A DNA stretch of 64,000 nucleotides from Acidobacteriota bacterium (GTDB lineage Bacteria > Acidobacteriota > Blastocatellia > UBA7656): assembly GCA_040754075.1 (NCBI GenBank), contig JBFMDH010000001.1, positions 1-64,000 on the forward strand. The letters are read 5' to 3'. The notes beneath the pieces were generated by a model, which was not told where the DNA came from, made no database searches, and saw only the letters and a program-made list of their open reading frames with translations. The translations under genes and the position numbers were made by a program. Shown here one piece after another: positions 5,397 through 49,062 of this stretch. The number at the start of each line of letters is the position of its first letter. Within the stretch, counting starts at the first letter, position 1.

Positions 5397-5467
5397 TTTT
5401 TAGCCCGTAGTTCTTAGTCCCTGGGATTGCAAGCGAACGCAAGCGACTACGGACTACGGACTAAAAA
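5397..5467. repeat. inverted heptamer-array element 1
   Basis: The left arm (about 5397-5420) reads TTTTTAGCCCGTAGTTC and onwards. The right arm (5445-5467) is the reverse complement of TAGTCCG-type 7-mers. The two arms can fold into a long imperfect hairpin just after the receptor stop codon. It belongs to the family with words like GTCCGTA/GTCGGTA, also seen at 8931, 30703 and 45390. Confidence 0.7.
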
Positions 5468-5509
5468 TGGTTATGAGCAAACAGCAGTTTTGATTATTGC
5501 TTTTTGAGC

Positions 5510-5540
5510 GACCGGGTGGAAAAACCGCCCGGTCTTTTTT
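5510..5540 (+). terminator. rho-independent terminator after the TonB receptor
   Basis: A 10-bp stem (GACCGGGTGG with CCGCCCGGTC, one G-T wobble) encloses an AAAAA loop and is followed by six T. It lies between the receptor and the next gene. A TTG-start reading of the next gene would run through this stem, which argues for the later ATG at 5564. Confidence 0.85.
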
Positions 5541-5563
5541 ATGATGAATCGACTCGGCAAAAT

Positions 5564-7093
5564 ATGAATCCCCGCAATCTGCAAATCATTTTATTCATCC
5601 TCGTTGGTGCGTTTTCAGCGACCGCACAAAGTTCTGCCGAGCGTTCCCACGTCGAACGCTTCAGTTCGATCAAAGACCGCGCCGAACGCGACGAAAGCGA
5701 AGCCGTAGAAAAACTCAAAGCCAATCCCCAAGATGCCGCCGCCTGGAATCTTAAAGCCAATGCCCGAATGCGACTCGGCAAATATACGGAGGCGCTCGAC
5801 GACATACGCCGCGCTGTCGCCCTCGACGGCGCGAACGCCGATTACCAGGCGAGTCTCGGTTATGTGCTCTTCAAACTCGGTCGCCCGGCAGAAGCGCTTG
5901 CCGCCGAACGCGCGGCGCTGAAACTTGATGACAAAAATTTCACCGCCAACTATCAACTCGGAAGATTTTTGCTCACAAGCGGCGACGCCAAAGCTTTACC
6001 GGAAGCCGTCGCTTTACTGAAACGCGCCCTTGAAATCGACCCGCGCCGTTCAGAACTTAGGTTTGATTTAATCACTGCCTACCGATTGCTTGGCGATCAA
6101 CCGAATGCCATTGCGCAACTCAATCTTTTGCAGGATGCCCGACCCGCCGACCCGCGCGTGATTTATGCCGATGGGTTACTCGCCTCAGATAGAAATGATT
6201 TGCGCGCGGCGATTGCCAGCTTTCAACAGGCTTTGGCAAAAGACCCGACATTGTTTGGCGCGTGGCAGGATTTAGGGCTGGCATTCATTCGTCAAAATAA
6301 ATGGCAGGAAGCCTCGGAAACCTTCGGTGAACTCACGAAACGCCATTCCGATTCCGTCGAAGCCGCCTATCTTTACGCGCTCGCTTTGTACAACACCGGG
6401 CGTTTTGCAGAAGCCGAACGCGAAGCGCGTCGCGCTTTGAGAATTGATGCGGGCGCATCAGCGGCTCACACCCTGCTTGGCATCATCCTCGCTTCGCGCG
6501 GCGGCGCAGACCTTGAAGCCATCGAATCGCTCACGCAAGCGACGGCTTTGGACGTGAACAGTTTTGACGCCAATTTCTATTTAGGTCGCGTGCAATACGC
6601 AACGCGTGATTATGCGGGCGCGGTAAAATCCCTGCGCGTTGCCGTCAACCTCAATCCCAAACATTCTGAGAGCCGGTTCTTTTTAGGCACCGCGCTTGAA
6701 GCCAACGGCGAATCCGAAGCGGCGTTTAAAGAGTATGAAGAACTCGCAAAACTCGCGCCCGATTCCGCGCAAGGTCAGATGGGACTCGGCGCATTGCTCG
6801 TCAGGCAAGGGAAACTTGACGAAGCCATCGCCACTTTAAAAAAAGCCACAGAACTTGATGTGAAACTCTTTGAAGCGCACTGGGCGCTCGGTCGCGCATT
6901 GATTTTAAAAGAACGATATACGGATGCCATCAATGCTTTGCAAAATGCCGTCGCGCTGTTACCCGACAGACCTGACGCCCATTTTCAACTCGGTCAAGCC
7001 CTGCAACGCGCCGGTCGCAAAGAAGAAGCCGCCCGCGAATTTGAAACCGTCAAGCGATTGAACGAAGAGTTCCGCACACGGACGAAACAATGA
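5564..7093 (+). CDS. exported TPR-repeat protein
   Basis: A tetratricopeptide-repeat protein of about 509 residues. It starts with a signal peptide (MNPRNLQIILFILVGAFSATAQ) and then carries roughly a dozen 34-residue TPR units, for example AAWNLKANARMRLGKYTEAL and repeated ALEIDP/ALAKDP-type helix ends. TPR arrays are protein-interaction scaffolds, so no catalytic role is implied. The ATG at 5564 is chosen because the in-frame TTG 60 bases earlier lies before a terminator hairpin and because 5564 opens a clean signal peptide. The stop codon overlaps the ATG of the next TPR gene by four bases (ATGA), so the two are probably translated together. Acidobacteria often place such genes next to Oar receptors. 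Confidence 0.85.
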   Translation: MNPRNLQIILFILVGAFSATAQSSAERSHVERFSSIKDRAERDESEAVEKLKANPQDAAAWNLKANARMRLGKYTEALDDIRRAVALDGANADYQASLGYVLFKLGRPAEALAAERAALKLDDKNFTANYQLGRFLLTSGDAKALPEAVALLKRALEIDPRRSELRFDLITAYRLLGDQPNAIAQLNLLQDARPADPRVIYADGLLASDRNDLRAAIASFQQALAKDPTLFGAWQDLGLAFIRQNKWQEASETFGELTKRHSDSVEAAYLYALALYNTGRFAEAEREARRALRIDAGASAAHTLLGIILASRGGADLEAIESLTQATALDVNSFDANFYLGRVQYATRDYAGAVKSLRVAVNLNPKHSESRFFLGTALEANGESEAAFKEYEELAKLAPDSAQGQMGLGALLVRQGKLDEAIATLKKATELDVKLFEAHWALGRALILKERYTDAINALQNAVALLPDRPDAHFQLGQALQRAGRKEEAAREFETVKRLNEEFRTRTKQ

Positions 7094-8931
7094 GAAGGCA
7101 AAAGACAAAAGGCAAAAGGCAAAAGGCAAAAATCAGGTTTGGCAGCGCGCATCCGCACGGCTTGCTGTTGCTTTGCATAAAACTGCTTAAAGGCGATTAC
7201 CTGAAATTGATTAAGGTACAGTTGCAATCCCAGGCGGCAGAGCGACAAACTGCCGAAACGCCGCGCCGAAATTTTATTAAAGCGCGATTGCCATTCATCA
7301 CTTTTGCTTTTTGCCTTTTGCCTTTTGTCTTTTGCCTTTTTTCCATCAATGTCTTTGCGCAAAAAACAACTCGAAAACCGGTAGCGCCAAAAGCCTCGGC
7401 AAAACCGAATCAATTGCCGCAGGCGACGCAACAACTCATTGAACAAACCATCGCGCTGTTGCAAGCCAACCGTCTTGCCGAAGCCGAAGTCGCAGCGCGT
7501 CAGGTGGTCGCCGCTGCGCCGCGCTCTGCCGTCACTCATAATCTTTTGGGTGTGGTGCTCAATCAAGCGGGGCGACGCGATGAAGCGCAGGCGGAGTTCA
7601 ATGCGGCGATTGCCATCGACCCGAATTTTGCAAGCGCCCGCAATAATCTTGGAAGACTTTTTGCCGAGCAGGGTAAAACTCAAGAAGCCATCGCCGAATT
7701 TGAACGGGTGCTCAGCATCGAACCGGCGCACGCGCAGGCTAATTACAACCTCGGCGCGCTCTATGCCGATGCCGGCGATTTCGTAAAAGCCGCCGCGCGT
7801 TTTTCGGAAGCTCGTAAAGCCGACCCGCAAGACGCGCAACTCGCGCTGGCTTTCGTCAATGTTGCTTATCGCGCAGGTCGCGCCGCAGAAGCCGACGCGG
7901 CGGCAGATGTCGTCGAGCGGGTTGCCGCTAAAGATGCACGTGGTTTATTTACGCTGGCGACTGTGCTGGCGCAAAATGAGCAGTACGAACGCGCCGCCAA
8001 ACTTTTCGCCCGCGTCAATGAAATGCGCCCGCGCACCTTTGAAGTTCTCTACAATCTCGGCGTCGCGCTTTATCAATTAAACCAGTATGAAGAGGCTGCT
8101 AAATTTTTAGCAGAAGCCGCAGACCTCAACCCCGAACTGCCGGAAACTCATTTTCGCCTGGGACTGATTGCCAGTGAACGTAACGACCACGCCAACGCCG
8201 TTATGGAATTCAAACACGCGACCGAGCGCGACGCGAACAATGCGATTTATCACAATATGCTGGGGCGCGAATATTTTCGGGTTGGTTTTTGGGAAGGCGC
8301 GGTTGACGAATACAGCAAAGCGATGGCGATTGACCCGAAAAATCCCGCTTATGTGATGGCGCGGGCGAATGCCTTGTATCGCAAAGGCGAGTGGTTGCCA
8401 TCGGTCGAAGATTTTGAATTCGCCTCAAGGCTCGACCCCGGTATCAAAGACATCGAATACATTCTCGGTTACGGGCATCGCGCCGCCGGAAGTTTTGAAA
8501 AGGCGCGCGGCTATCTCGAAAAGTTTGTCGCCAAAAATCCCAATCACGTTGATGCGCTTGCGAGCCTCGGTTATGTGGCGATTGAGCAGGGCAGGTTTGA
8601 AGAAGCCGAAGCGCCACTCAAGCGCGCCTTGCAACTTGCGCCCGACAATGTGCCGGTGCTCTATGATTTTGCGCGCCTTGCCATCAAAGAGCGCAATTAT
8701 GAACAAGCGGTAATCAGGCTCGAAAAAGTTTTGCAGAAAAATCCGACGCACACGCAGGCGCATTATCAACTGTTTCTCGCCTATTCGCGTTTGAAACAAA
8801 CCGATAAAGCGCAGGTCGAGTTAGGCGAATTTCGCCGCCTTGAAGCTCTGGAAAAACAGGTCAAACAGGAGCGTATACTGGATGAAAAAATTCGCACCCA
8901 GCAGATGCTCGGACAACCGCAACAACAGTAG
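7090..8931 (+). CDS. TPR-repeat protein with repeat-derived N-terminus
   Basis: A second large TPR protein (613 residues as drawn), coupled to the first by an ATGA overlap. From about residue 105 it consists of some 12-14 TPR units (AVTHNLLGVVLNQAGRRDEA, HAQANYNLGALYADAG and similar). The N-terminal 90 residues are odd. Residues 2-14 (RRQKTKGKRQKAK) come from a tandem GCAAAAG array. Residues around 73-86 (FAFCLLPFVFCLFS) form a hydrophobic core encoded by the inverted copy of that array, followed by FAQ, which looks like a signal-peptidase site. If translation begins at 7090 the signal core is unusually far from the N-terminus, so a later start is possible, although no strong alternative ribosome site is visible. 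Confidence 0.8.
   Translation: MRRQKTKGKRQKAKIRFGSAHPHGLLLLCIKLLKGDYLKLIKVQLQSQAAERQTAETPRRNFIKARLPFITFAFCLLPFVFCLFSINVFAQKTTRKPVAPKASAKPNQLPQATQQLIEQTIALLQANRLAEAEVAARQVVAAAPRSAVTHNLLGVVLNQAGRRDEAQAEFNAAIAIDPNFASARNNLGRLFAEQGKTQEAIAEFERVLSIEPAHAQANYNLGALYADAGDFVKAAARFSEARKADPQDAQLALAFVNVAYRAGRAAEADAAADVVERVAAKDARGLFTLATVLAQNEQYERAAKLFARVNEMRPRTFEVLYNLGVALYQLNQYEEAAKFLAEAADLNPELPETHFRLGLIASERNDHANAVMEFKHATERDANNAIYHNMLGREYFRVGFWEGAVDEYSKAMAIDPKNPAYVMARANALYRKGEWLPSVEDFEFASRLDPGIKDIEYILGYGHRAAGSFEKARGYLEKFVAKNPNHVDALASLGYVAIEQGRFEEAEAPLKRALQLAPDNVPVLYDFARLAIKERNYEQAVIRLEKVLQKNPTHTQAHYQLFLAYSRLKQTDKAQVELGEFRRLEALEKQVKQERILDEKIRTQQMLGQPQQQ
7094..7342. repeat. inverted heptamer-array element 2 (GCAAAAG word), inside a CDS
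   Basis: The left arm 7094-7132 is a tandem GCAAAAG array (units GCAAAAG, ACAAAAG, GCAAAAG, GCAAAAG). The right arm 7301-7342 is its reverse complement (CTTTTGC-type units). The roughly 170-bp spacer and both arms are read in frame as the N-terminus of the TPR protein that starts at 7090. Confidence 0.8.
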
Positions 8932-9128
8932 CCGGTGGTCGGTAGTCAGTAGCCGGTGGCAAAAAGATTACGGCGGTTTTAATGGAGTGAAAGCAGTGTT
9001 TACAAAATCAAAAGTTTGGTTAGTTGGCTGGTTATTTTTATCATCAATTCTAACTGCTTGTACACAACCAGAATTAGTGGATGACGCAACTACCACTAAC
9101 CACTGGCTACCGACTACCGGCTACCGAC
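8931..9128. repeat. inverted heptamer-array element 3 (GTCGGTA/GCCGGTG words)
   Basis: The left arm 8931-8960 reads GCCGGTG, GTCGGTA, GTCAGTA, GCCGGTG. The right arm 9085-9128 reads the reverse complement (GTCGGTA, GCCGGTA, GTCGGTA, GCCAGTG on the minus strand). The spacer carries the ribosome site, start and lipoprotein signal of the downstream GH13 gene, and the right arm is translated as part of that protein. Confidence 0.75.
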
Positions 9129-10951
9129 AGCATGCGCCGGAAGTTTTGAAAGTCGAGCCGCCGAACTGGTGGGCGCAGTCTTCGATTAATCCTGTGCGAC
9201 TCTTAGTTCGCGGGAAAAATTTTGCGGGTGCGACGGTTGAATCACCAGACGAAGATTTGCGGACGAGTGATGTCAAAGTGAGCGCGTCGGGAACTTATCT
9301 TTTCGTCGATGTGCAGATTGATGCCAGTGCGCAAGCGGGTGCGCGAACGTTGAAAATCACCACGCCCAGTGGCACAACCGATTTCAAGTTTGAAATTTTG
9401 CAACCGCTGGCGCGTGAAGGGCGCTTTCAAGGTTTCACGCCTGCGGATGTCATCTACTTAATCATGCCCGACCGCTTCAGCGATGGTGACCGGTCGAACA
9501 ACGACCCGCAGGAATCGCGCGGTCTGTACTTGCGCGAAAACGCGCGCGCCTATCACGGCGGCGATTTACAGGGCGTGATTGACCGCTTGCCCTATCTTAA
9601 AGATTTGGGCGTGACAGCTATCTGGATGACGCCGGTTTATGACAATAGCAATCGCGCCAAAGATTTTGATTGGGGCAAAAACGTCACGGACTATCACGGC
9701 TATGGCGCGGTGGATTTCTACCGCGTCGAAGAACATTTCGGCACGCTGGAAAAATTTAAAGAATTAGTAGACCGTGCCCACGCGCTTGGACTCAAAGTGA
9801 TTCAAGACCAGGTCGCCAATCACACGGGACCTGACCACATCTGGACTACTGACACACCGACGCCGACGTGGTTGAACGGCACGCTTTTGAGTCACCCGAA
9901 TAATGTCTGGGACATTAAATCAACGACGCAGGAAAACCCTGACCGCGAGCGTTTTGAAGCGACGATTCGCGGGTGGTTCGCTAACACGTTGCCCGATCTC
10001 AATCAGGATGATGGCGAGTGTTCGCGCTACTTGATTCAAAATGCCGCGTGGTGGGTTTCCAGTACGGGTGTTGACGGCATTCGTCAGGACACCTTCCCAT
10101 ATGTCGGGCGCAAATTCTGGAGCGAGTGGAATCAGGCGCTCCAAACCGAGTTTCCCGACCTCACAGTGGTTGGCGAAGTTTTTGATGGTCGCCCCGAAGT
10201 CACTTCGTTTTTTCAAGGCGGGGTGGCGCGCTTTGATGGCATAGACACGCGCCTGCATACGGTCTTCGATTTTCCGAGTTACTTTGCGATGCGCGATGTC
10301 TTCATTCGCCATCAACCGATGAGCCGCCTGAGCGACATTTTGAATCAGGATGCGCTCTATGTGAATGCCCGCGTACTTGTGCCGTTTATCGGCAATCACG
10401 ATGTCAAACGTTTTATGGGTGAAGACGGAGCGAGTTTTGAAGCCTTGAAAAATGCTTTTACGTTTTTACTGACGATGCGCGGCACGCCACAAATTTATTA
10501 TGGCGATGAGATTGGTTTGAAAGGCGGCGATGACCCGGATAATCGCCGCGATTTTCCCGGCGGCTTTGCCGGTGATGCAAGAAACGCTTTTGCGGATGAA
10601 GGGCGAACCAAAAAAGAGCGCAAGCTCCTGAAACACGTCCGCAATCTGTTGCGGGCGCGGGCTGAAAATGCTGCCTTGCGTGTGGGGGAAACGAAAATTT
10701 TATCGGCAAATGAACATTCTCTGGTGATGATGCGACAAGCAGGAAACGATTGCGCGATTGTGGCTTTTAATAATTCCAATAAAGCCACAGAAATTGAAGT
10801 GACGTTACCGAAAACCGCAAATTCAGCGACCCGCTGGATAGCGGCATTTTCTGATGCGCGCCGCTGGCAAGGACGCGCAATGCGAGATAAACTTAGAGTG
10901 CCATTACAGCCATCAAGCGCAATTGTTTTAATCGAGAGCAAAAGAAGGTAG
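8996..10951 (+). CDS. GH13 cyclomaltodextrinase/neopullulanase-like lipoprotein
   Basis: Glycoside hydrolase family 13 enzyme that should cleave alpha-1,4 links in maltodextrins or cyclodextrins. GTG at 8996 is preferred because GGAG lies 8 bases upstream and a lipoprotein signal follows at once (VFTKSKVWLVGWLFLSSILTAC, here quoted only as VFTKSKVW...SILTAC). The lipidated Cys would anchor it in the envelope. An Ig-like cyclomaltodextrinase N-domain (VEPPNWWAQSSINPVRLLV) precedes the TIM barrel. All four conserved regions are present: DQVANH, GVDGIRQDTF (nucleophile D365), VVGEVFDG (acid/base E394) and FIGNHDVKRF (D469). About 15 residues after the lipid Cys are encoded by a heptamer repeat. 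It is paralogous to the enzyme at 13980. Confidence 0.88.
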   Translation: MFTKSKVWLVGWLFLSSILTACTQPELVDDATTTNHWLPTTGYRQHAPEVLKVEPPNWWAQSSINPVRLLVRGKNFAGATVESPDEDLRTSDVKVSASGTYLFVDVQIDASAQAGARTLKITTPSGTTDFKFEILQPLAREGRFQGFTPADVIYLIMPDRFSDGDRSNNDPQESRGLYLRENARAYHGGDLQGVIDRLPYLKDLGVTAIWMTPVYDNSNRAKDFDWGKNVTDYHGYGAVDFYRVEEHFGTLEKFKELVDRAHALGLKVIQDQVANHTGPDHIWTTDTPTPTWLNGTLLSHPNNVWDIKSTTQENPDRERFEATIRGWFANTLPDLNQDDGECSRYLIQNAAWWVSSTGVDGIRQDTFPYVGRKFWSEWNQALQTEFPDLTVVGEVFDGRPEVTSFFQGGVARFDGIDTRLHTVFDFPSYFAMRDVFIRHQPMSRLSDILNQDALYVNARVLVPFIGNHDVKRFMGEDGASFEALKNAFTFLLTMRGTPQIYYGDEIGLKGGDDPDNRRDFPGGFAGDARNAFADEGRTKKERKLLKHVRNLLRARAENAALRVGETKILSANEHSLVMMRQAGNDCAIVAFNNSNKATEIEVTLPKTANSATRWIAAFSDARRWQGRAMRDKLRVPLQPSSAIVLIESKRR

Positions 10952-11004
10952 CTGCGATTTATTTCTGTAGATAGCTTCTTTTGTTCGCCGGTTCGCTGCC
11001 CTTT

Positions 11005-11484
11005 CACCGCAGAGGCGCAGAGAACGCAGAGGAGGCGCAGAGAAGATGCGGATCAATGATGTGACTTGGGCAATCATCGGAGCGGCAATAGAAGTACATC
11101 GTTCGCTTGGCCCCGGATTATTGGAATCTGCATACGAAGAATGTCTGTGTCGGGAACTGGATTTACAGGGCATCAGCTTTAAACGGCAACTGCCGGTTCC
11201 GCTTGAATACAAAGGCGTCAGACTCGACAAAGGCTATCAACTCGATATGCTTGTTGAAAACGCAGTTGTCGTTGAAGTGAAGTCGGTTGATGCACTGCAC
11301 TCGGTTTTTGAAGCGCAGACTTTGACTTATATGCGACTTGGTGGTTGGAAAGTGGGGTTGCTTTTAACTTCAATGTGGAAATTTTGAAGGAAGGCGGCAT
11401 CCGTCGCCTGGTTCTCAATCTTGAGGAAGATGGCGAGCCAAAGAGAGAGGGATAGTCTCTGTGTTCTCTGCGTCTCTGCGGTTA
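11005..11484. repeat. inverted CGCAGAG-array pair bracketing the GxxExxY gene
   Basis: The left arm 11005-11044 holds repeated CGCAGAG units spaced 8-11 nt apart. The right arm 11455-11484 holds the inverse (TCTCTGCG units). The arms lie just before the start and just after the ancestral stop of the GxxExxY reading frame, so gene and arms look like one unit. Confidence 0.75.
11046..11455 (+). pseudogene. GxxExxY family protein, frameshifted near the C-terminus
   Basis: The family name comes from the motif [11 protein letters not shown], seen near residue 22. The core ([35 protein letters not shown]) matches this small family of unknown function, whose E-V-K strand resembles a PD-(D/E)XK nuclease fold. 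The open frame stops at 11387 after LLLTSMWKF. One base earlier in phase, from about 11363, the sequence continues as [19 protein letters not shown] and ends at TAG 11453-11455, the normal family ending. One A therefore appears to be missing (CTTTTAACTTC where CTTTTAAACTTC would restore the frame). It could be a decaying gene, a sequencing error or, less likely, programmed -1 frameshifting. It sits inside inverted CGCAGAG arrays. Confidence 0.8.
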
Positions 11485-11556
11485 ATGAGCATTGTGCAGA
11501 AGACGCTTTGGCTTAACTTAGAAATTGGTTTTTAAGAAATCATCCTGGAGAAAATT

Positions 11557-13857: not shown

Positions 13858-13870
13858 GCGATTTGAAATA

Positions 13871-17388: not shown

Positions 17389-17535
17389 CAGTCTGGAGTC
17401 GCGAGTCTTGAGTCGAGAGTCCGAAAGCCTTTGACTCGCTTATCTTGAAGCGTTGTGATGTCTAACCATTATTCAGGCAGTTCAGCCTCTGCCCTTTTGA
17501 CTCCAGACTCTGGACTCCCGACTCCAGACTTTTTT
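17389..17535. repeat. inverted heptamer-array element (GTCNNGA word)
   Basis: The left arm 17389-17428 reads GTCTGGA, GTCGCGA, GTCTTGA, GTCGAGA, GTCCGAA. The right arm 17498-17535 is the reverse complement (GTCTGGA, GTCGGGA, GTCCAGA, GTCTGGA). It fills nearly all of the SDR-MFS gap. Confidence 0.8.
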
Positions 17536-18967: not shown

Positions 18968-20386
18968 ATGAAAGTTCGGCTAATATCCACGCTTCTATTT
19001 TTATTATTTTTTACCACTATGATAATTGGCACCACTTGGACACACGCGCATTCGATTCGCGCCGGGTTTCAAGCGCGCGATGTCGCGAAAGAGCGGGCGC
19101 GCGCGTCAACCGGTTGGGTACGCGATGCAGTGATCTATGAAATTTTCACGCGCAATTTTTCTGCGGAAGGGAATTTCAATGGCATCACCGCAAAGCTCGA
19201 CCATCTGCAAAACCTCGGCGTCACGGTGTTGTGGCTCATGCCGATTCATCCGACGGGCGGGCTTAATAAAAAGGGAAGTATCGGCAGTCCTTACGCGGTG
19301 CGCGATTATTATGCGATTCATCCCGATTACGGCTCGCAAGAAGATTTCAAGCGGTTAGTGAGCGAAACCCATAAACGCGGCATGAAAATCATCATCGACA
19401 TTGTTGCCAACCATACGGCATGGGACAGCGTGCTCATGAAGCAGGCGGAATTTTATAAGCGCGACGCGCAGGGCAAAACCCTTTCGCCATACGATTGGTC
19501 GGATGTTGCCTGGCTCAATTATGACAACCCGAAAGTTCGCGAGTATATGATGGACATGCTCAAATACTGGATTCGCGAATTTGACCTTGATGGGTTTCGT
19601 TGTGATGTAGCGTGGCTGGTGCCGACGGATTTCTGGGAAAAGGCGCGCGTGGAACTCGAAAAAATCAAACCCGAACTGATTATGATTTCCGAGGCGACTT
19701 ATCCTGAACACCTGGTCAAAGCCTTTGATATGGATTACGCCTGGCCGTTTTTTCATACGCTGGAAGATGTGCTGACGGGAAGAAGTACAGCGACCGAGGT
19801 TCGCAAAAACTGGGAAGCGGAGCGCGCGCGTTATCCGCAAGGCGCGTTGCGTATGCGGTTCATTGATGACCATGACGAACGCCGCGCGCTGGCAGAATTC
19901 GGCAGAGCGGCGACGCTTGCCGGTTCGGTACTATTTTTCACGATGGACGGCGTGCCGCTTCTCTATAACGGCATGGAGGTCGGCGACACCACAGAATCGC
20001 GAGCGCCTGCTCTGTTTGAACGACTGCCGATTTTCTGGAAAAACGCCGAACATCGCCCGGAAATTCCGCGCTTTTATAAACAAATCATTGCCTTGAGAAA
20101 AGCCCATCCGGCATTGCGAAGTGGCGAAACTCTCTGGCTTCGCAATGCCGCTGAAGCGCGGGTGGTGACTTATGTGAGGCATCTCGGCGATGAAGAAATT
20201 TTAGTTGCCATCAATTTGTCGAATCAATCATTCACCGGACAGGTTGAAGTTGGCAACGCTTCATCGTTTACTGAAATCACCCCGAACATCAGTGGCGAGG
20301 CGCAGGTGAAAACAAAGGTTGTGGGACTTCCGGCGCTGGCGCTTGAGCCGTGGGGTTGGCGGGTCTTTCTTCGTAAGACGAGGTGA
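18968..20386 (+). CDS. exported GH13 alpha-amylase family enzyme
   Basis: Smaller GH13 protein without the Ig-like N-domain of the other two. A signal peptide (MKVRLISTLLFLLFFTTMI and on) leads into the barrel (WVRDAVIYEIFTRNFS). Catalytic residues are visible: IDIVANH, DLDGFRCDVAW (D213), MISEATYP (E242) and FIDDHDERRA (D303, with DHD replacing NHD). A short C-terminal beta domain ends the protein. ATG 18968 is used; ATG 18962 (two residues longer) is equally possible, as both follow GAAAGG. It is probably co-transcribed with the MFS transporter. It likely makes short maltooligosaccharides in the envelope, but specificity cannot be assigned. Confidence 0.88.
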   Translation: MKVRLISTLLFLLFFTTMIIGTTWTHAHSIRAGFQARDVAKERARASTGWVRDAVIYEIFTRNFSAEGNFNGITAKLDHLQNLGVTVLWLMPIHPTGGLNKKGSIGSPYAVRDYYAIHPDYGSQEDFKRLVSETHKRGMKIIIDIVANHTAWDSVLMKQAEFYKRDAQGKTLSPYDWSDVAWLNYDNPKVREYMMDMLKYWIREFDLDGFRCDVAWLVPTDFWEKARVELEKIKPELIMISEATYPEHLVKAFDMDYAWPFFHTLEDVLTGRSTATEVRKNWEAERARYPQGALRMRFIDDHDERRALAEFGRAATLAGSVLFFTMDGVPLLYNGMEVGDTTESRAPALFERLPIFWKNAEHRPEIPRFYKQIIALRKAHPALRSGETLWLRNAAEARVVTYVRHLGDEEILVAINLSNQSFTGQVEVGNASSFTEITPNISGEAQVKTKVVGLPALALEPWGWRVFLRKTR

Positions 20387-20545
20387 CGAGAGAAGAGGTG
20401 AAGAGGTGAAGGGGTGAGTTTCGGTTATTGAATTTCCAGGCAATTTATATTTTGCTCGAATTTTTCAAGCACGATGAAAGTATAGCCTATCACCTTTTCA
20501 CCCCTTCACCCCTTCACCCCTTCATTCTTCTTCACCGCTTCATCC
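20378..20545. repeat. inverted octamer-array element (GAAGGGGT word)
   Basis: The left arm 20378-20418 carries AGAGGTGA and AGGGGTGA units, the first of which overlap the stop of the GH13 gene. The right arm 20486-20545 is the inverse (ACCCCTTC units). It separates convergent genes and could act as a bidirectional hairpin. Confidence 0.7.
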
Positions 20546-20547
20546 GA

Positions 20548-30702: not shown

Positions 30703-30826
30703 AAGTCAGTAGTCAGTAGTCCGTAGCCTTCTGATTTTGAGATGTGTTGTTATTATCACAAAACAAATCATAAATGATGAAAAATCAATTACCGACTACC
30801 GACTACTGACTACCGACCACGGACTA
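30703..30826. repeat. inverted heptamer-array element (GTCAGTA/GTCCGTA words)
   Basis: The left arm 30703-30728 reads GTCAGTA, GTCAGTA, GTCCGTA. The right arm 30791-30826 is the inverse (GTCCGTG, GTCGGTA, GTCAGTA, GTCGGTA on the minus strand). The right arm ends exactly at the start codon of the next gene. Confidence 0.8.
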
Positions 30827-31564
30827 ATGACCAAATTATCTGATATTGCCGCAATGCTTCATTCACCCGTCGAAAAACGTTTGTTTGCCGAATACGGCGC
30901 GATATTCATAACTCGGGCTACCCCACCGCCGACCATTATTTTTACCGATGCCGATGCCGTCGATAATTTTCAGATAACGCTCGATACCCGTAAAGCAACA
31001 TTCGGTGAATACGAAATCGAGTTGCAGCGTGAAGCTTGCGACGCGCTGCTGGCTGCCGCCTACGAAGCTGCGCAAACGGGATTAACCATTTCGGCGCGCG
31101 CTGCAGACGCCGGGCGCAGGTCTTATGCCGACACCGTTGGTCTGTGGTTAAGAAATGTGGGTCGCGGACTTGAGCACTGGCTGAAATTGGAAAAGCTTGA
31201 TGCGAATCACGTCGCAGCGATTCAATCGCTTTCGCCAGCAGAACAAGTCAGTGTGATTTTAGAATTGGAAGACCGTGAGCAAATTTATTTCGGCACCTTC
31301 TTTGATAAATCGATTCTTTATTCAGTCGCGGCACCCGGCGCTTCACAACATCTATCCATGCTGGCTTTCGATGTGATGGAATATCAGGACAGTGAAGTCG
31401 AGCGGAGGTTAAACGCCCAGGGTTGGTTTCGTACAGTGGTCAATGATTTGCCACATTTCACTTACCTGGGACATGCAGAAAAAGCGTTACCCGAACTTGG
31501 GTTGCATAAAGTTTCCCGCCTATATGGTGAATCGAATTTCAGTTTTTGGATTCCCGCATTGTGA
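30827..31564 (+). CDS. peptidase M15 (D-Ala-D-Ala carboxypeptidase)-like protein
   Basis: 245 residues from ATG 30827; upstream in-frame residues would be encoded by the heptamer element. The sequence keeps the M15/VanY pattern: an Arg-Ser-Tyr loop (AGRRSYAD, near residue 97), then SQHLSMLAFD giving zinc ligands H175 and D182 with the family's 7-residue spacing, and PHFTYLG giving the third ligand H210. The catalytic Glu three residues before the last His is Asp (D207). The Gly of the usual SxHxxGxAxD motif is also replaced. It may be a variant enzyme or inactive. No signal peptide is visible, which is odd for a peptidoglycan enzyme. Confidence 0.65.
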   Translation: MTKLSDIAAMLHSPVEKRLFAEYGAIFITRATPPPTIIFTDADAVDNFQITLDTRKATFGEYEIELQREACDALLAAAYEAAQTGLTISARAADAGRRSYADTVGLWLRNVGRGLEHWLKLEKLDANHVAAIQSLSPAEQVSVILELEDREQIYFGTFFDKSILYSVAAPGASQHLSMLAFDVMEYQDSEVERRLNAQGWFRTVVNDLPHFTYLGHAEKALPELGLHKVSRLYGESNFSFWIPAL

Positions 31565-41076: not shown

Positions 41077-41083
41077 AGGGAAT

Positions 41084-43412: not shown

Positions 43413-43441
43413 TTGACAAAAGAGAAGTCGCTTATAATAAT
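43413..43441 (+). promoter_or_regulatory. sigma-70 promoter of the yceD-rpmF-fab operon
   Basis: A perfect TTGACA (43413-43418), a 17-bp spacer and AATAAT (43436-43441) lie 78 bases before yceD. An overlapping TATAAT at 43433 would give a too-short spacer of 14. Confidence 0.65.
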
Positions 43442-43518
43442 GAATGTCTTTTGCGTGAAGCGGTTTTTTGCTTGATGGGAAGCATGACACAAGGCACGCG
43501 GGCAGTTTTTGTTAGCCT

Positions 43519-44040
43519 ATGGAACTCAACATCAGTCAGATTGATGAGCGAGATGGACTGAACCTCACCCATCGATATACGGAAGGGGAAATCGGTTTAG
43601 TTGGAAACGACGGCAAACTCGTTGGTCGAACCGCTGTCAATCTTCAAGCCACACGCGAAGGTGAAGAAGTTTTGTTGCGCGGCAGCGTGCAGGCAAATGT
43701 GCAGTTTGAATGCGACAGATGCCTCGTGGAGATGACGGTTCCGGTCACTCAGAGTTTCGATTTGCTTTATCTTCCGGCAAGCCACCGCAATGCGCGCGAA
43801 GAACATGAATTAAAAGCAGATGATCTTTCAATCGCCTATTATCAGGGGCACTTGATTAATTTAGATGACCTTGTGCGCGAACAGATTGAACTGACGCTGC
43901 CCATGACCCGGATTTGCCGCGAAAACTGTCAGGGGCTTTGCACCGAGTGCGGAGCCAATTTGAATGAAGGCAAATGTAATTGCGGCAATCAGCAGATAGA
44001 CCCGCGATGGGCTGCGCTCAAGGGCTTGAAAACAAATTAA
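43519..44040 (+). CDS. yceD: YceD/DUF177 family protein
   Basis: 173 residues. The pattern LLRGSVQANVQFECDRCLVE, MTVPV and the Cys-rich end LCRENCQGLCTECGANL...CNC, here seen as CRENCQGLCTECGAN, matches DUF177, a family with paired CxxC zinc sites. E. coli YceD is tied to 23S rRNA processing or accumulation. It sits directly upstream of rpmF, an order conserved across many bacteria. It heads the operon behind a strong promoter. Confidence 0.9.
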   Translation: MELNISQIDERDGLNLTHRYTEGEIGLVGNDGKLVGRTAVNLQATREGEEVLLRGSVQANVQFECDRCLVEMTVPVTQSFDLLYLPASHRNAREEHELKADDLSIAYYQGHLINLDDLVREQIELTLPMTRICRENCQGLCTECGANLNEGKCNCGNQQIDPRWAALKGLKTN

Positions 44041-44055
44041 GGAGTTTTATTTACC

Positions 44056-44244
44056 ATGCCAAATCCGAAACGCAAACATTCAAAATCGCGTACCGGCAAT
44101 CGCCGCGCGCATGATTTTTTAGCTACACCTGCCATTAATGCCTGTACACAATGCGGGGCTGCCGTAATGCAACACCGCGTCTGCCAGAAATGCGGTTTCT
44201 ATCGCGGTCGTAAAGTCATGGAAGTCAAAGAAGACAACCGCTAG
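44056..44244 (+). CDS. rpmF: 50S ribosomal protein L32
   Basis: 62 residues, the usual length. MPNPKRKHSKSRTGNRRAH is the basic N-terminus; CTQCGAAVMQHRVCQKCGFY supplies the four-Cys zinc ribbon, so this is the zinc-binding (C+) form. It follows yceD by 15 bases and has AAGGAG upstream. Location: large ribosomal subunit. Confidence 0.97.
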   Translation: MPNPKRKHSKSRTGNRRAHDFLATPAINACTQCGAAVMQHRVCQKCGFYRGRKVMEVKEDNR

Positions 44245-44249
44245 TTTTA

Positions 44250-44375
44250 ATTGCGGATTGCGAAATGCGGATTGCGGATTGATGAAGAAATCGTTCAATT
44301 CCTAATCGGCAAAACACAATCAAAAGGTAAATGCGAAATTTCAAATTGCACAATCAAAATCTGCAATCCGCAATC
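44250..44375. repeat. inverted heptamer-array element (GGATTGC word)
   Basis: The left arm 44250-44281 reads ATTGCGG, ATTGCGA, AATGCGG, ATTGCGG. The right arm about 44330-44375 is its diverged inverse (ATTGCGG, ATTGCAG, then decaying units on the minus strand). It fills the rpmF-plsX gap. Confidence 0.72.
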
Positions 44376-44386
44376 GAAAGGTTGGA

Positions 44387-45391
44387 ATGCTGAAAATCGC
44401 TGTTGATGCTATGGGAGGCGATTATGCTCCCGCAAGCGAAGTCGAGGGTGCCATTCAGGCGGTGCGTGAACTCGACGCGAGCGTCATTCTGGTCGGACAA
44501 ATCGAAAAAATCCAAAGCGAACTCGCAAAACATCGCGCCGCTCAGGACGCAGTTTGGGATGAATCGAAGATTGAAATCGTTGATGCGCGTGAAGTCATCA
44601 CCATGAACGACCCGGTTGCACAGGCGTTTCGTCGCAAACGTGATAGCTCGATTCGCGTCGCCGCCACTCTGGTACAGGAAGGCAAAGCCCACGCACTGGT
44701 CAGCGCCGGCAATACCGGCGCAGTGATGATGACCGCGAAACTGATTATCGGGTCGCTTTCCAAAGTTGATCGCCCGGCGCTTGCAACCGTGTTACCCACT
44801 TATGATCGCGCCGGTGCGGTGTTACTCGATGTCGGTGCCAATGCCGAATGCAAACCGAAACACCTTTATGAATTCGCGGTGATGGGGTCGCTCTATTCGA
44901 GCGCCATCCTCGGCGTTGAAAATCCCCGCGTCGGCGTTCTCTCAATCGGTGAAGAAGAAGAGAAGGGCAACGACCTCACCAAAGAAGCCGCAAAACTGCT
45001 GAAAGATTCCCGGCTCAATTTTATTGGCAATGTCGAAGGTCGTGACCTTTACAACAATCAGGCTGATGTTATTGTCTGTGATGGATTCACCGGCAATGTG
45101 GCTTTGAAGGTCAGCGAAGGCGTCGTCGAATTCATCATGAGCTTTTTTAAGAAGGCGATGGCGGCGTCGGAAGCGAATGCTGCGATGGCTTCCAATCCGG
45201 TATTTGCCAGTTTGCGCAAGCGCCTTGATTATTCCGAATATGGCGGCGCGCCGCTTCTCGGCATCAAGAGCGCAACGGTGATTTGTCACGGGCGTTCCAA
45301 TGCCAAAGCCATCCGCAATGCGATTGCCGTGGCGCGCGATTATTCGGTTGGTAAAGTTAGTGAAAGGATTGAAGAGCAGTTGACAACCTAG
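44387..45391 (+). CDS. plsX: phosphate acyltransferase PlsX
   Basis: 334 residues. It converts acyl-ACP to acyl-phosphate for phospholipid synthesis at the membrane. MLKIAVDAMGGDYAPASEVE is the hallmark N-terminus, with further blocks ALVSAGNTGAVMMTAKLIIG and NVEGRDLYNNQADVIVCDGF, both typical of PlsX. It is flanked by two heptamer elements inside an otherwise standard rpmF-plsX-fabD order. The weak ribosome site AAAGG lies 9 bases before the ATG. Confidence 0.95.
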   Translation: MLKIAVDAMGGDYAPASEVEGAIQAVRELDASVILVGQIEKIQSELAKHRAAQDAVWDESKIEIVDAREVITMNDPVAQAFRRKRDSSIRVAATLVQEGKAHALVSAGNTGAVMMTAKLIIGSLSKVDRPALATVLPTYDRAGAVLLDVGANAECKPKHLYEFAVMGSLYSSAILGVENPRVGVLSIGEEEEKGNDLTKEAAKLLKDSRLNFIGNVEGRDLYNNQADVIVCDGFTGNVALKVSEGVVEFIMSFFKKAMAASEANAAMASNPVFASLRKRLDYSEYGGAPLLGIKSATVICHGRSNAKAIRNAIAVARDYSVGKVSERIEEQLTT

Positions 45392-45483
45392 TCCGTAGCC
45401 CGTAGTCCATCGTCCGTAGCATCTGACAAATACGACGCTAAGGACAACAGACTACGAATAACTACGGACTACGGACTACGGAC
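45390..45483. repeat. inverted heptamer-array element (GTCCGTA word)
   Basis: The left arm 45390-45421 reads AGTCCGT, AGCCCGT, AGTCCAT, CGTCCGT. The right arm 45444-45483 is the inverse (GTCCGTA three times, then decayed units on the minus strand). It fills the plsX-fabD gap and ends two bases before the fabD start. Confidence 0.82.
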
Positions 45484-45485
45484 GA

Positions 45486-46418
45486 ATGATCAAAGTTGCA
45501 TTTATCTTTCCGGGACAAGGGTCGCAAACCGTCGGCATGGGTAAAGAATTAGCTGACGCTTTGCCGGTTGCGCGAAAAGTTTTTGATGAAGCCGATGCGG
45601 CGCTCGGCGAAGCGCTCTCAACCCTTTGTTTTGAAGGTCCCGAAGAAACCTTGAAATTAACTGCGAATACCCAACCGGCGATTTTGACAACTTCGATTGC
45701 GGCGCTTCGCGCCTTGGAAGCGCGCGGCATTCACCCGGATTTTGTCGCCGGTCATTCGCTGGGTGAATATAGCGCACTGGTTGCCGCAGGCGGTTTGAAT
45801 TTTGCAGACGCCGTGCGCATTGTCAGGCAGCGCGGCGAGTTTATGCAGGAGGCTGTGCCCGCGGGTGAAGGGGCGATGGCGGCGCTGATTGGCGGCGATG
45901 TTGCAAGCGTCGAATCGCTTTGCGAAGCGGTGGCGAGTTTAGGTGTTTGCCAGCCGGCAAATATCAATTCGCCAAGTCAAATTGTCATTGCCGGGAATAA
46001 AGCCGCGGTTGAACGCGCGGTTGAACTCGCCAAAGATAAAGGCTTTCGTCGCGCTGTGCTGCTTGCCGTCAGCGCGCCGTTTCATTGTCAGTTGATGAAA
46101 CCGGCGGCAGAAAAATTGCAGCCGGTGCTTGAGGCGACAACTTTTGCCGATTTGCAAACGCCGCTGGTGACCAACGTGGATGCGCGAATCATTGCCACGG
46201 GGACAGCGGCGCGGGATAGTTTATGCAGGCAGGTGGCATCGCCTGTGCGTTGGAGTGATTCCGTCAGATTATTACTTGAAGAGGGCGTCGGTGTTTTTGT
46301 TGAAGTCGGCGCCGGAAAAGTTTTGTCAGGACTGGTGCGCAACCTCAGCAAAGAGTGTAAGGTTTTCAATGTAGAGAACCTTGAATCACTCGAAGCGACG
46401 GTTGCTGCTTTACAATAG
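45486..46418 (+). CDS. fabD: malonyl-CoA:ACP transacylase FabD
   Basis: 310 residues. It loads malonyl groups onto ACP for fatty-acid synthesis in the cytoplasm. IFPGQGSQTVGMGKE is the oxyanion-hole region, GHSLGEYSAL holds the catalytic Ser91 and APFH holds His200. The protein has the standard length. No clear Shine-Dalgarno site is seen, because the start codon abuts the heptamer element and ACGGACGA precedes it. It is followed by acpP and fabF. Confidence 0.95.
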   Translation: MIKVAFIFPGQGSQTVGMGKELADALPVARKVFDEADAALGEALSTLCFEGPEETLKLTANTQPAILTTSIAALRALEARGIHPDFVAGHSLGEYSALVAAGGLNFADAVRIVRQRGEFMQEAVPAGEGAMAALIGGDVASVESLCEAVASLGVCQPANINSPSQIVIAGNKAAVERAVELAKDKGFRRAVLLAVSAPFHCQLMKPAAEKLQPVLEATTFADLQTPLVTNVDARIIATGTAARDSLCRQVASPVRWSDSVRLLLEEGVGVFVEVGAGKVLSGLVRNLSKECKVFNVENLESLEATVAALQ

Positions 46419-46494
46419 CCCAAAGCGATTTGCTGATTTTGCAGGATTAGCTTATCGTTCAAATTGAAATCATAATTTTAGGAGGAGCTAGGAA

Positions 46495-46734
46495 ATGGAA
46501 GGTTCCGTTGAAGAGAGAGTAAAACAGATTATCGTTGATGAACTTGGTGTAGATGAAGGTGAAGTGACCCTGAACGCTCGCTTTATTGATGACCTGGGCG
46601 CGGATTCGCTCGACACGGTCGAGTTAGTGATGCGTTTTGAAGAAGAATTCGATATTGAAATACCCGACGAAGACGCTGAAAAAATCACCAGTGTTCGTGA
46701 CGCGGTTGATTATATTGGCAAGCACTCCAAGTAG
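46495..46734 (+). CDS. acpP: acyl carrier protein
   Basis: 79 residues. The phosphopantetheine attachment motif [12 protein letters not shown] gives Ser38. The protein is acidic throughout and of normal length. AGGAGG lies nine bases before the start. It lies between fabD and fabF as in many bacteria. Confidence 0.97.
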
Positions 46735-46793
46735 TGCCAATTGAGGCGTGCCACTAAACGTTGGCGCACGCTTCTCGATTTGGAGGTGATACC

Positions 46794-48035
46794 TTGAACC
46801 GTCGTGTAGTAGTCACAGGTATCGGTTTGGTTTGCGGAGCAGGCAACACGAAGGAAGATGTATGGGCGACTTTGCTGGCGGGTAAAAGTCAGGTCGGTCC
46901 CATTACGCGATTTGACACTTCGGCTTTTCCTGTGCGCATTGCCAGTGAAGTGAAAAATTTTGATCCTCTGAAATTCGTTGAGAAAAAAGAGGTCAAAAAG
47001 ATGGACGTGTTTATTCACTATGCAATTGCCGCAGCGCAAGAGGCGATGGATGATTCGGGATTGAAAATTAACACCGATAACGCCGCGCGGGTCGGAACCT
47101 ATATCGGTTCAGGCATCGGCGGATTCGGAGTCATTGAACGCGAACACGAAAAATATCTCAAAGGCGGGCCCGGTCGTATCTCGCCCTTTTTTATTGTCGC
47201 GTCAATCGTCAATCTCGCATCCGGTCAGGTTTCCATTCGTTTTGGCGCAAAGGGACCGAACTCGGCAACCTGTACGGCTTGTTCATCGGGAGCACACGCC
47301 ATTGGCGATAGCTTCAGAATTATTCAACGAGGCGATGCCGATGCCATGATTTGCGGCGGCGCGGAAGGCGCGATCACGCCGATGGGCGTTGGCGGATTCG
47401 CTTCGATGCGGGCATTGTCGGAACGCAACGCCGAGCCGGAACGCGCCAGCCGTCCGTTTGACGGCAACCGTGATGGCTTTGTGATTGGCGAAGGCGCGGG
47501 GATGTTGATTTTGGAAGAACTCGAACATGCGCGCGCGCGTGGCGCAAAGATTTATGCTGAACTGGTTGGTTACGGCATGACGTCTGACGCTTATCACATC
47601 ACCCAACCTTGCGAAGATGGTGATGGCGCGATTCGTGTGATGCAAACCACCATCAAAGACGCCGGCATCGAACCCCAGCAAATCGGTTACATCAACGCCC
47701 ACGGCACATCGACCTATTACAACGATAAAATTGAAACGATGGCAATCAAAAAAGTTTTCGGCGACGCCGCTTATTCGATTCCCATCAGTTCAACCAAATC
47801 GGTTATGGGGCATTTGCTCGGTGCGGCGGGCGGTGTGGAGGCGGGCGTCCTGGCGCTTGCCGTTCACAATCAAACTGCGCCGCCGACAACCAATTACGAA
47901 CAGCCTGACCCGGAATGCGATCTCGATTATGTGCCGAACACGCCACGCAAAACCGACATCGCTTATGCGCTTTCCAACTCATTCGGTTTCGGGGGCACCA
48001 ATGCCGCGCTCCTGATGAAGCGTTACCCCGAATAA
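46794..48035 (+). CDS. fabF: beta-ketoacyl-ACP synthase II
   Basis: About 413 residues. It extends acyl-ACP by condensation with malonyl-ACP. The catalytic Cys is in CTACSSGAHAIG, with the two His in INAHGTSTYYND and KSVMGHLLGAAGG. TTG at 46794 is preferred: GGAGGTGAT lies just upstream and NRRVVVTGIG is the normal N-terminus, while the longer ATG form adds 11 unrelated residues. It is the last gene of the operon, and a short hairpin follows. Confidence 0.95.
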   Translation: MNRRVVVTGIGLVCGAGNTKEDVWATLLAGKSQVGPITRFDTSAFPVRIASEVKNFDPLKFVEKKEVKKMDVFIHYAIAAAQEAMDDSGLKINTDNAARVGTYIGSGIGGFGVIEREHEKYLKGGPGRISPFFIVASIVNLASGQVSIRFGAKGPNSATCTACSSGAHAIGDSFRIIQRGDADAMICGGAEGAITPMGVGGFASMRALSERNAEPERASRPFDGNRDGFVIGEGAGMLILEELEHARARGAKIYAELVGYGMTSDAYHITQPCEDGDGAIRVMQTTIKDAGIEPQQIGYINAHGTSTYYNDKIETMAIKKVFGDAAYSIPISSTKSVMGHLLGAAGGVEAGVLALAVHNQTAPPTTNYEQPDPECDLDYVPNTPRKTDIAYALSNSFGFGGTNAALLMKRYPE

Positions 48036-48061
48036 ATTCGCAGGCACTTGCGGGTATAACG

Positions 48062-48090
48062 CTCTGCCGACAGGCAGAGATTTCATTTTC
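48062..48090 (+). terminator. probable terminator after fabF
   Basis: CTCTGCC, a GACA loop and GGCAGAG form a 7-bp stem followed by the T-rich ATTTCATTTTC. It is 27 bases past the fabF stop. Confidence 0.5.
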
Positions 48091-48195
48091 GTTTACCGGC
48101 GGACAAAGATGCTGATGACTTAACCAAATCATCGGCATCATTGACCGCCTTTCAACGAGTAGATAAAGGCTTATTAAAAATCAAAGGGAAGAGTC

Positions 48196-48981
48196 ATGAA
48201 CATCGTTGTTTGTTTGAAACAGGTTCCGAAAAAGGATTCGATTTTACGCATTGCAGCGGATGGCAAATGGATTGATGACCGCGACCTCAGTTATGAAATG
48301 AGCGAAGCCGATTCTTACGCGCTGGAAGAAGCCTTGCGTCAAAAAGAGAAAATCGGCAGCGGTGAAGTCATCGTTATCGCCTTGGGTCCCGAACGGGTAC
48401 GCCAGTCCATCAAAGAGGCGCTCGCGAAAGGCGCAGACCGCGCCATTCATCTGTTCGATGATACCTTCAATGCGGCGACTGATGCCGAAGGCGTCGCCAC
48501 GGCGCTTGCCGCGGCTTTAAAGAATGAAAAGGTTGACCTCGTGCTCACAGGCTTGCAATCCGACGATTACGGTTTCGCGCAGGTCGGCTTGATTCTTGCC
48601 GAAAAAATGGGTCTTTCGAGCGCCACCATCGTTATGGAAGTGCAGCCTCATGGCGATAAAGTTCGCGTCAAACGCGAACTCGAAAGCGGCTGGTTCCAGT
48701 GGGTCACGATCCCAACGCCGGCGCTACTCACCATTCAATCGGGCATCAATCAACTGCGCTACGCGACCCTCAAAGGCATTATGGCAGCGAAGAAAAAAGA
48801 GCTTCGCGAAGTCAAAGCCGCTGACCTCGGTTTATCTGCCGATGATTTAAAAGCCCGTCAGACCATCGAAAAAGCCTATTTACCGGTGAAATCCAAACAG
48901 ACGGAAATCATCGAAGGCAAACCGTCTGAGGCGGCTGCCAAGTTGGTCGAGAAACTGAAATTCGAGGCGAGAGTTTTATAG
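48196..48981 (+). CDS. etfB: electron transfer flavoprotein beta subunit
   Basis: 261 residues. MNIVVCLKQVPKKDS, SEADSYALEEALR and LVLTGLQSDDYGFAQVGLI are EtfB landmarks; the protein binds AMP and pairs with EtfA. The heterodimer takes electrons from acyl-CoA dehydrogenases and passes them to ETF-quinone oxidoreductase. AAAGGGAAG precedes the ATG. A heptamer element separates it from etfA. Confidence 0.93.
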   Translation: MNIVVCLKQVPKKDSILRIAADGKWIDDRDLSYEMSEADSYALEEALRQKEKIGSGEVIVIALGPERVRQSIKEALAKGADRAIHLFDDTFNAATDAEGVATALAAALKNEKVDLVLTGLQSDDYGFAQVGLILAEKMGLSSATIVMEVQPHGDKVRVKRELESGWFQWVTIPTPALLTIQSGINQLRYATLKGIMAAKKKELREVKAADLGLSADDLKARQTIEKAYLPVKSKQTEIIEGKPSEAAAKLVEKLKFEARVL

Positions 48982-48983
48982 AT

Positions 48984-49062
48984 TAGGATACGGGATACAG
49001 GATTCAGGATTCAGCTAAGCTCAAAATAACTGAATCCTGAATCCTGTATCCTGAATCCTGGA
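48984..49062. repeat. inverted heptamer-array element (GGATTCA word)
   Basis: The left arm 48984-49014 reads GGATACG, GGATACA, GGATTCA, GGATTCA. The right arm about 49029-49062 is the inverse (TGAATCC, TGAATCC, TGTATCC, TGAATCC). It lies between etfB and etfA, and its right end runs into the etfA ribosome site GGAGGAAGG. Confidence 0.82.

Follow-up and report, generated by a model that had tools for sequence, protein, structure and literature searches.

The window analysed here is a stretch of 64,000 nucleotides from an Acidobacteriota bacterium (GenBank assembly GCA_040754075.1, contig JBFMDH010000001.1, positions 1 to 64,000), in which ten places carry a tandem array of short words, a spacer and an array of the same word in inverted orientation. 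These array pairs probably delimit a small mobile element of the S23p or intervening-sequence type as its two ends, or are the remains of such an element. Its complete form would be about 420-500 bp long, with a G-rich heptamer array on the left (about AGTNNYY), an open reading frame (ORF) of family PF05635, and the same word inverted at the right. A preliminary description of this DNA had the architecture right, while its propositions that the elements share no sequence and were generated rather than copied turned out to be largely wrong.

Arms and ORF form a discrete unit that occurs either whole or not at all, shows selection at the protein level, decays, and carries words near those of copies without an ORF. 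A parallel kind of element has a PD-(D/E)XK protein (GxxExxY) as cargo and another word grammar.

Array pairs in the window and in the host genome

All ten places for which it had been described show the plan, with an array on the left and its inverted counterpart on the right. The arms also match within each element, as described; the inverted alignment exceeds the best of 300 letter shuffles of the element's own arms in 10/10 cases, and the score of the same arms in direct orientation likewise in 10/10. Own arms pair better than every combination with arms of the other nine elements in 7/10, narrowly so at 5397 (18 v 17), and the three that fail to beat foreign arms (8931, 30703 and 45390) all belong to the shared GTCSGTA group. 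The word length of 7 nt holds for most elements; that at 20378 is an 8-mer and that at 11005 has words of 8 to 11 nt, as had also been stated. By eye, the left arm of 5397 and the right arm of 44250 are degenerate. An S23p-type ORF (PF05635/TIGR02436) is found in 0/10, and the element at 11005 is of another kind, enclosing a GxxExxY ORF.

The host genome was sampled by the window together with twenty 20-kb stretches (464 kb), five placed on earlier pattern hits and 15 placed blind, and pairs were counted within 600 bp. This sample contains 105 arrays of period 7, which form 29 inverted pairs and one direct pair, against 15 arrays and no pairs in an order-2 Markov resample; a single architecture, as opposed to random background, is thereby confirmed. 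Period 6 gives 10 inverted and 6 direct pairs (0 and 1 in the resample), periods 5 and 8-15 give at most four inverted pairs each, and period 4 shows no excess over its resample. At looser settings (up to 2 mismatches, up to 700 bp), 9/15 blind stretches have at least one pair. Most pairs occupy intergenic gaps with arms reaching stop or start regions, and a small number fall within or straddle predicted genes.

The kept polarity that had been reported is found in the genome at large, where G exceeds C in the 5' arm of 30/32 pairs; in the window alone the count is only 7/10, the exceptions being 5397 and 45390, with more C than G, and 11005, with equal numbers. Among S23p loci, G exceeds C in the 5' arm of 115/130. 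Since an array followed by its inverted copy is its own reverse complement, this polarity is a property of the element, running from outside to inside, and not of gene direction. Copying of spacers between elements was examined separately and rejected: BLAST of 28 spacers against the 464 kb returned mainly nested arrays and short matches, and the sole real relative was the S23p ORF of locus L048 against that of L063 (69%).

Cargo proteins and their spread across bacteria

The long spacer of L048 encodes a four-helix-bundle protein of family TIGR02436 (117.4 bits), and three cargo ORFs match PF05635/TIGR02436 with 135.9, 101 and 122.3 bits. The Pfam names are 23S_rRNA_IVP (PF05635) for S23p and PDDEXK_3 (PF13366) for GxxExxY; 2GSC and 2RLD are the only solved structures found for a PF05635 protein. 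The host genome has 14 matches to TIGR02436 and 4 to GxxExxY. Twelve of the 14 S23p matches were placed between inverted arrays by the program (7-mers in 10, 8-mers in 2), a thirteenth (L067) has arms of roughly 9-mers by eye, and L077 is ambiguous. One of the 14, L078, is an S23p gene fragment (29 bits) within GGATTGC arms. As for the host GxxExxY genes, L079 is flanked according to the array program and the other three according to flank alignment.

TIGR02436 is present in 58/78 genomes of the host's class. A scan of named genomes, covering the best 80 of at least 586 loci, reached 18 groups, sorted by record title, in about 15 phyla, where most loci come from metagenome bins and individual group assignments may be wrong. 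Removal of four duplicates (L078, L194, L202 and L211) gave a final set of 139 distinct S23p loci, 126 of them with full 250-nt flanks; the duplicates are still contained in the word alignment, the eight-word distance, and the G-U and orientation counts given below. The inverted arm alignment scores at least 14 in 120/126 loci and at least 18 in 107, and the arms are periodic in 105/126, with period 7 in 92, period 8 in six and period 9 in seven. Strict cross-pairing tests are weakened because many failing loci share a common word, and shifted controls (700 or 850 nt) were therefore added. These score at least 14 in 6/112, 10/113, 4/112 and 13/110 cases and are periodic in 0, 0, 1 and 0. Matched arms were also found in 20/20 copies from three genomes, three copies having been known beforehand. 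For GxxExxY, inverted arms scoring at least 14 occur in 31/32 usable loci, compared with 0/30 and 2/31 in controls. In a test of phage carriage, none of 50,697 phage records matched a single S23p query at E 1e-6.

Word grammar and inheritance with the protein

Rotation alignment of 101 heptamers gave the core A-G-T-N-(G)-Y-Y (about AGTNNYY) with 3.64 bits, compared with a mean of 2.24 and a maximum of 2.28 bits in 20 runs of letter permutation within words. The core is a tendency, as AG or GG stands first in 94/100 words and AGT or GGT in 59. The elements thus have a grammar in common across phyla, contrary to the earlier proposition that they do not share sequence. GxxExxY elements mostly obey a different grammar: their words resemble CRCAGAG or CRGAT and recur at intervals of 8 to 10 nt or more.

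Among S23p loci, word distance is correlated with protein identity (Mantel r -0.27, 0/1999 permutations); the mean distance is 3.34 below 45% identity and 1.20 in the 15 pairs above 75%. The word therefore appears to be inherited along with the ORF inside the element, and to drift. Roughly one aligned position in four differs between the arms, and transversions account for 60% of these mismatches. A test for strand-specific RNA pairing was negative, as neither strand has an excess of G-U mismatches (364 v 397, p 0.25). With a quarter of positions mismatched and no such bias, what is kept would be the word rather than exact pairing, which would fit protein sites better than an RNA-selected stem.

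The variable words also bear on the relation to miniature inverted-repeat transposable elements (MITEs) and to REPIN/RAYT systems (repetitive extragenic palindrome doublets with their transposases). Both are short and intergenic, with inverted ends and non-autonomous copies, and their fixed end sequence is tied to a transposase. Size, intergenic position, inverted ends, ORF-less copies and short edge repeats at two sites would all agree with ordinary elements of this type, moved by a known transposase with S23p as a passenger. In the present elements, however, the ends vary even within one genome and have no fixed sequence, the word follows the S23p lineage, and the arms go with one protein family in 120/126 loci, so that this explanation seems very improbable.

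Occupied and empty sites

Comparison of related sites points to insertion of whole elements with short edge repeats, sometimes with loss of target sequence; on cyanobacterial plasmids such insertions separate a stop codon from the next start codon. On Trichormus and Scytonema plasmids (L245/L295), an S23p element lies between AAAAAGTAA and TAATTAACAAATAAWT-ATG, whereas three plasmids of about 97% identity (L292, L293 and L296) have the empty site AAAAAGTAATTAACAAATAAWT-ATG; no target was lost, and GTAA is repeated at the element edges. At the same spot, Nostoc C052 (L294) retains a remnant of 132 nt comprising the left array and the 5' portion of the ORF. Further pairs are L243/L244 occupied versus L268-L270 and L272 empty; L318 occupied versus L322 and L323 empty, with ATG repeated; L320/L322/L324 occupied versus L318 and L323 empty; and L319/L325 occupied versus L321 and L326 empty. 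Two Nostoc ATCC 53789 plasmids with paralogous operons carry the element in the second gap of one and the first gap of the other, reciprocally empty, and where the second gap was entered, the ATG of a TAATG overlap is repeated. In relatives, the genes on either side of such elements overlap or stand 3-13 nt apart.

The sites near plsX were compared by eye. In the rpmF-plsX-fabD region, arrays of either identical or different words occupy gaps adjoining plsX in genomes G001, G003, G004 and G006, and arrays near plsX are also seen in the more distant G013, G015 and G027; between plsX and fabD, G002, G005 and G031 have only a short gap without arrays. Relatives largely show ORF-bearing elements as ordinary copies, an outcome that the preliminary description had set against its own view, while for the ORF-less elements of the window there is presence and absence at plsX-fabD, between genera only.

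That view was generation in place, by which hairpin extension and polymerase slippage create inverted arrays de novo. Array length does turn over: L245 and L295, about 97% identical, have left arrays that differ by exactly two units (14 nt), and changes of 14 and 30 nt are found inside arrays between genomes G021 and G025. Nevertheless, ORF-bearing elements fill gaps that are minimal in relatives, words are inherited with the ORF and grow apart as protein identity falls, arms share a cross-phylum grammar, and period-7 arrays hardly exceed a resample (8 versus 6) in six genomes that lack the proteins. Generation in place is accordingly largely refuted for ORF-bearing elements and, taken as a whole, hardly credible.

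As a separate observation, Aulosira laxa plasmid2 (L271, 879-1493) has an extra 204-aa gene between the same integrase and hypothetical genes where Calothrix has an S23p element; inspection by eye showed no array arms there.

Orientation, selection and neighbouring genes

The S23p ORF is co-oriented with its neighbours in 74/81 tandem gaps and the GxxExxY ORF in 21/23, and two named plasmid cases (L246 and L271) run against their neighbours. Tandem gaps account for 81/111 S23p sites, and tandem pairs are about as frequent in the host genome overall (253/330); the bias therefore lies in orientation and not in gap type. The sense orientation agrees with a gene dependent on read-through from host genes, and host transcripts could express the ORF of an element that lies between genes and is nearly always directed along the host operon. 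Among five ORF pairs tested, the ratio of nonsynonymous to synonymous substitution rates (dN/dS) is 0.12 and 0.04 in the two informative ones, in which the ORF is under purifying selection.

Co-orientation would equally be expected if the elements were domesticated RNA hairpins, that is, regulatory structures selected in operon gaps for RNase III processing, translation or termination, with S23p as an RNA-binding partner. In keeping with this, every element of the window is predicted to fold more stably than first-order Markov shuffles (z -2.1 to -6.7 for the ten), and RNase III cuts the rRNA intervening sequence that has an S23p ORF (PMC4990558). We consider this explanation unlikely, given that the same gaps are empty in relatives, that words and presence turn over between genera, that there is no G-U strand bias, and that Rfam has no match in the window or in L245, L320 and L048.

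A retroelement has also to be weighed, in which an Avd-like protein and a reverse transcriptase acting in trans copy hairpin RNA into transcribed gaps. The sense orientation of the ORF agrees with it, Avd and PF05635 are homologous (PMC10053308), one S23p of four proteins scanned has weak similarity to bAvd (PF22296, E 9e-9, below the cut-off), and the host genome has two PF00078 genes. PF00078, however, occurs in only 32/78 genomes of the class and is absent from G036, G061, G077, G065, G073, G062 and G057, which have 17, 14, 14, 13, 13, 12 and 12 S23p genes, respectively; two other S23p-rich genomes (G043 and G053) give one weak match each. A reverse transcriptase in trans is thus unsupported over the 78 genomes and seems not to be needed, which leaves the retroelement improbable.

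Some S23p genes lie within CRISPR-Cas loci (clustered regularly interspaced short palindromic repeats). In Picosynechococcus PCC 7003 (L317, 1741-2169), an S23p gene with inverted GGAGAT-type arms stands between cas10 and cmr3, the arrangement listed as CRISPR-linked in Pleurocapsa (PMC3936711); that survey lists 18 PF05635 genes in cas loci, one of them between Cmr2 and Cmr3, as a CRISPR-Cas-associated function. PF05635 was also the family found most often when immune retroelements were searched for (PMC10053308). An S23p gene with heptamer-type arms is found between cas6 and cas4 as well, and in Anabaena sp. 90 (L247, around 3390-3460) the right array is translated as the Cas4 N-terminus. 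The Dolichospermum operon L291, whose shared parts are 99% identical to L247, carries a different insertion at this position: at 920-1164 of L291 (strain UHCC 0315A), the cas6-cas4 gap is filled by another repeat, GTTGGGTTGACGC..., whose inverted ends resemble CAACCCAAC by eye.

Small elements without a reading frame

The words of 27 ORF-less elements of the host were compared with its ten own S23p words, two of which were read by eye. The mean distance is 1.00, against 1.94 for random sets from other genomes (0/2000 as close); 9 elements have exactly an own S23p word, and 18 lie within one letter of one. With the eight program-read words only, the distance is 1.44 versus 2.03 (13/1000). Furthermore, 200 kb from six genomes lacking both proteins yielded no inverted pair with a period of 7-9, compared with 8, unevenly spread, in 200 kb of six rich genomes. 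In this small sample, the small ORF-less elements appear to be linked to the protein-bearing ones.

Fresh ORF-less insertions were sought between G021 and G025 in 27 aligned blocks (94 kb summed with overlaps), and no new element was found there; the blocks contain 15 insertions or deletions of at least 12 nt, which are array-unit changes or other repeats. In G021 (L281, C2 at about 861.5-866.2 kb) and its G025 counterpart, nested AGTGGCG/AGTAGCG arrays cluster around the sole S23p gene of a 3.7-Mb genome.

The ten elements of the window

The positions of the ten elements are collected in Table 1. Element 1 begins right behind the stop codon of the ORF at 1920-5396 and folds with z -2.8. Words are shared with S23p loci in several cases: that of element 2 equals the word of the host's own locus L073 and that of element 3 the word of L066 (distance 0 in both), the 8-mer of element 6 is that of L072, and the word of element 8 is that around the S23p fragment of L078 (the last two by eye). 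The ORF upstream of element 8 is rpmF-like, and the same gap in G001 has a related word (both by eye).

Two elements extend into coding sequence. Element 2 lies within the N-terminal part of the ORF at 7090-8931, given its first ATG as start; read from there, over 7090-7360, the left GGCAAAA array gives a basic stretch and the right array (TTTTGCC) a hydrophobic run (by eye), and the arms may thus have been turned into a signal peptide. The left arm of element 3 overlaps a TAG stop at 8929-8931, and its right arm lies inside an alpha-amylase-like ORF (8882-10951), where the right array is translated (region 8931-9129) between a lipobox-like segment and the enzyme part (by eye).

Table 1. Positions of the inverted array pairs in the window and of the cargo gene of element 4
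Feature	Position	Strand	Left arm	Right arm	Word and remarks
Element 1	5397..5467		5397-5422	5442-5467	left TAGCCCG-like, degenerate; right CTACGGA
Element 2	7095..7340		7095-7136	7300-7340	GGCAAAA
Element 3	8928..9129		8928-8959	9093-9129	GCCGGTA/GTCGGTA
Element 4	10997..11491		10997-11042	11455-11491	second kind; (A)CCGCAGAG.. arms enclose GxxExxY gene
GxxExxY gene, cargo of element 4	11046..11387	+			TIGR04256, 129.7 bits; PF13366 PDDEXK_3, 125.1 bits
Element 5	17390..17530		17390-17421	17499-17530	GAGTCTG; by eye the word of S23p locus L068
Element 6	20371..20547		20371-20417	20498-20547	8-mer GAAGAGGT; between convergent genes
Element 7	30704..30831		30704-30725	30790-30831	GTCMGTA
Element 8	44245..44379		44245-44286	44340-44379	GGATTGC; directly upstream of plsX
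Element 9	45391..45483		45391-45413	45461-45483	GTCCGTA; left arm overlaps plsX stop; fabD ATG at 45486
Element 10	48985..49059		48985-49017	49027-49059	GGATTCA; spacer 9 nt; fold z -6.7

Possible mechanism and contrary evidence

The S23p protein would recognise the tandem words at both ends of the element and bring these ends together, and could do so in trans for ORF-less copies. The arms would be kept alike through turnover of units between arms or at each move, since their likeness during word drift goes beyond what plain copying explains. The seven-base pitch and the several repeats per end may point to an oligomer lying along each arm; a solved S23p homologue is described as a homopentamer (PMC4990558).

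A number of observations weigh against a mobile element with protein-read ends. Recognition of the words by the protein is something that we infer, and the correlation between word and protein could be explained by joint inheritance alone. No transposase, integrase or nuclease is found in the S23p element, and none is shown to act in trans, no transposase survey having been made. The lack of G-U bias is counted here as well. Six of the 126 loci score below 14 (L077, L107, L110, L118, L119 and L193), the strict mismatched-flank test is passed by only 48/78 named S23p loci with usable flanks, and against mismatched flanks GxxExxY arms rank among the top three in only 20/32 loci, although in both tests a common word is shared by many of the loci that fail. 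Edge repeats measure 3-4 bp and are clear at two sites only (GTAA and ATG), being absent or ambiguous elsewhere, and target loss of a few to about 41 nt (by eye) is seen at other sites, namely the Calothrix integrase, TraM and Aulosira gaps. One very close ORF pair has a dN/dS of 0.86, and two pairs have no silent change. Among the small elements, 9/27 are two or three letters off, including the commonest word, CGTAGTC, and the test of dependence on the proteins is thin, as 7/10 rich stretches are without a period-7 pair.

Relation to known repeats and elements

The closest known relative is the intervening sequence in 23S rRNA that carries an S23p/IVP ORF (for example, one of 428 nt; PMC4990558), which shares the protein family, a similar size and stem-forming terminal inverted repeats; the same Coxiella study reports three tandem heptamers upstream of the S23p ORF. 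By contrast, the present elements, as far as they were looked at, lie between protein genes and not in a 23S rRNA helix, and they have tandem arrays as both arms, many ORF-less relatives and element-specific words. The diversity-generating retroelement protein Avd is a homologous four-helix bundle (PMC10053308; the match to bAvd here is weak), but the present elements lack a reverse transcriptase, template or variable repeat.

Cyanobacterial heptamers known as short tandemly repeated repetitive sequences (STRRs) were reportedly described by Mazel in 1990. The intergenic repeats of Nostoc PCC 7120 (ttgtcagttgtcag, attgcgaattg and taggggtgtaggggt; PMC2408588) have the same kind of word, and S23p elements on cyanobacterial plasmids end in such heptamers, although the covered text of that paper does not describe the repeats as ends of S23p elements. 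The present elements consist of tandem intergenic heptamers, as do STRRs and bacterial heptamer simple sequence repeats. In Xanthomonas, GGGAATC heptamers are intergenic and form 70 and 75 close convergent array pairs (PMC4692102). Convergent pairs are inverted pairs, as here; there, however, one word is used and is read as a G-quadruplex-forming repeat, and the text available contains no mention of S23p, 'four helix' or 'intervening'. The TAACTGA repeats of Beggiatoaceae have period 7, are intergenic, and have a patchy distribution suggesting transfer (PMC4679880), but unlike the present elements they are reported as direct repeats close to start codons and were interpreted as sites to which a translational regulator binds. 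Heptamers are the commonest longer tandem repeats in many bacterial genomes, which is ascribed to polymerase slippage in work quoted by PMC4679880 and PMC4692102. Searches of an open-access library showed no paper that connects heptamer repeats with S23p outside rRNA.

A wider reading can be put forward only tentatively: that the elements form a new class of mobile element in many phyla, whose ends are a private, co-evolving heptamer array read by its own four-helix-bundle protein, that an unrelated protein, GxxExxY, adopted the same plan with its own grammar, and that most bacterial heptamer repeats, STRRs included, are ends or remains of such elements. PF05635 genes near cas genes sit there with heptamer-type arms, a warning against assigning function by association. 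Collectively, the elements would offer one testable origin for two old puzzles, the abundance of heptamers in many bacterial genomes and the purpose of the S23p/IVP protein, and their matched, drifting words would provide a natural set of candidate protein and site pairs for work on recognition.

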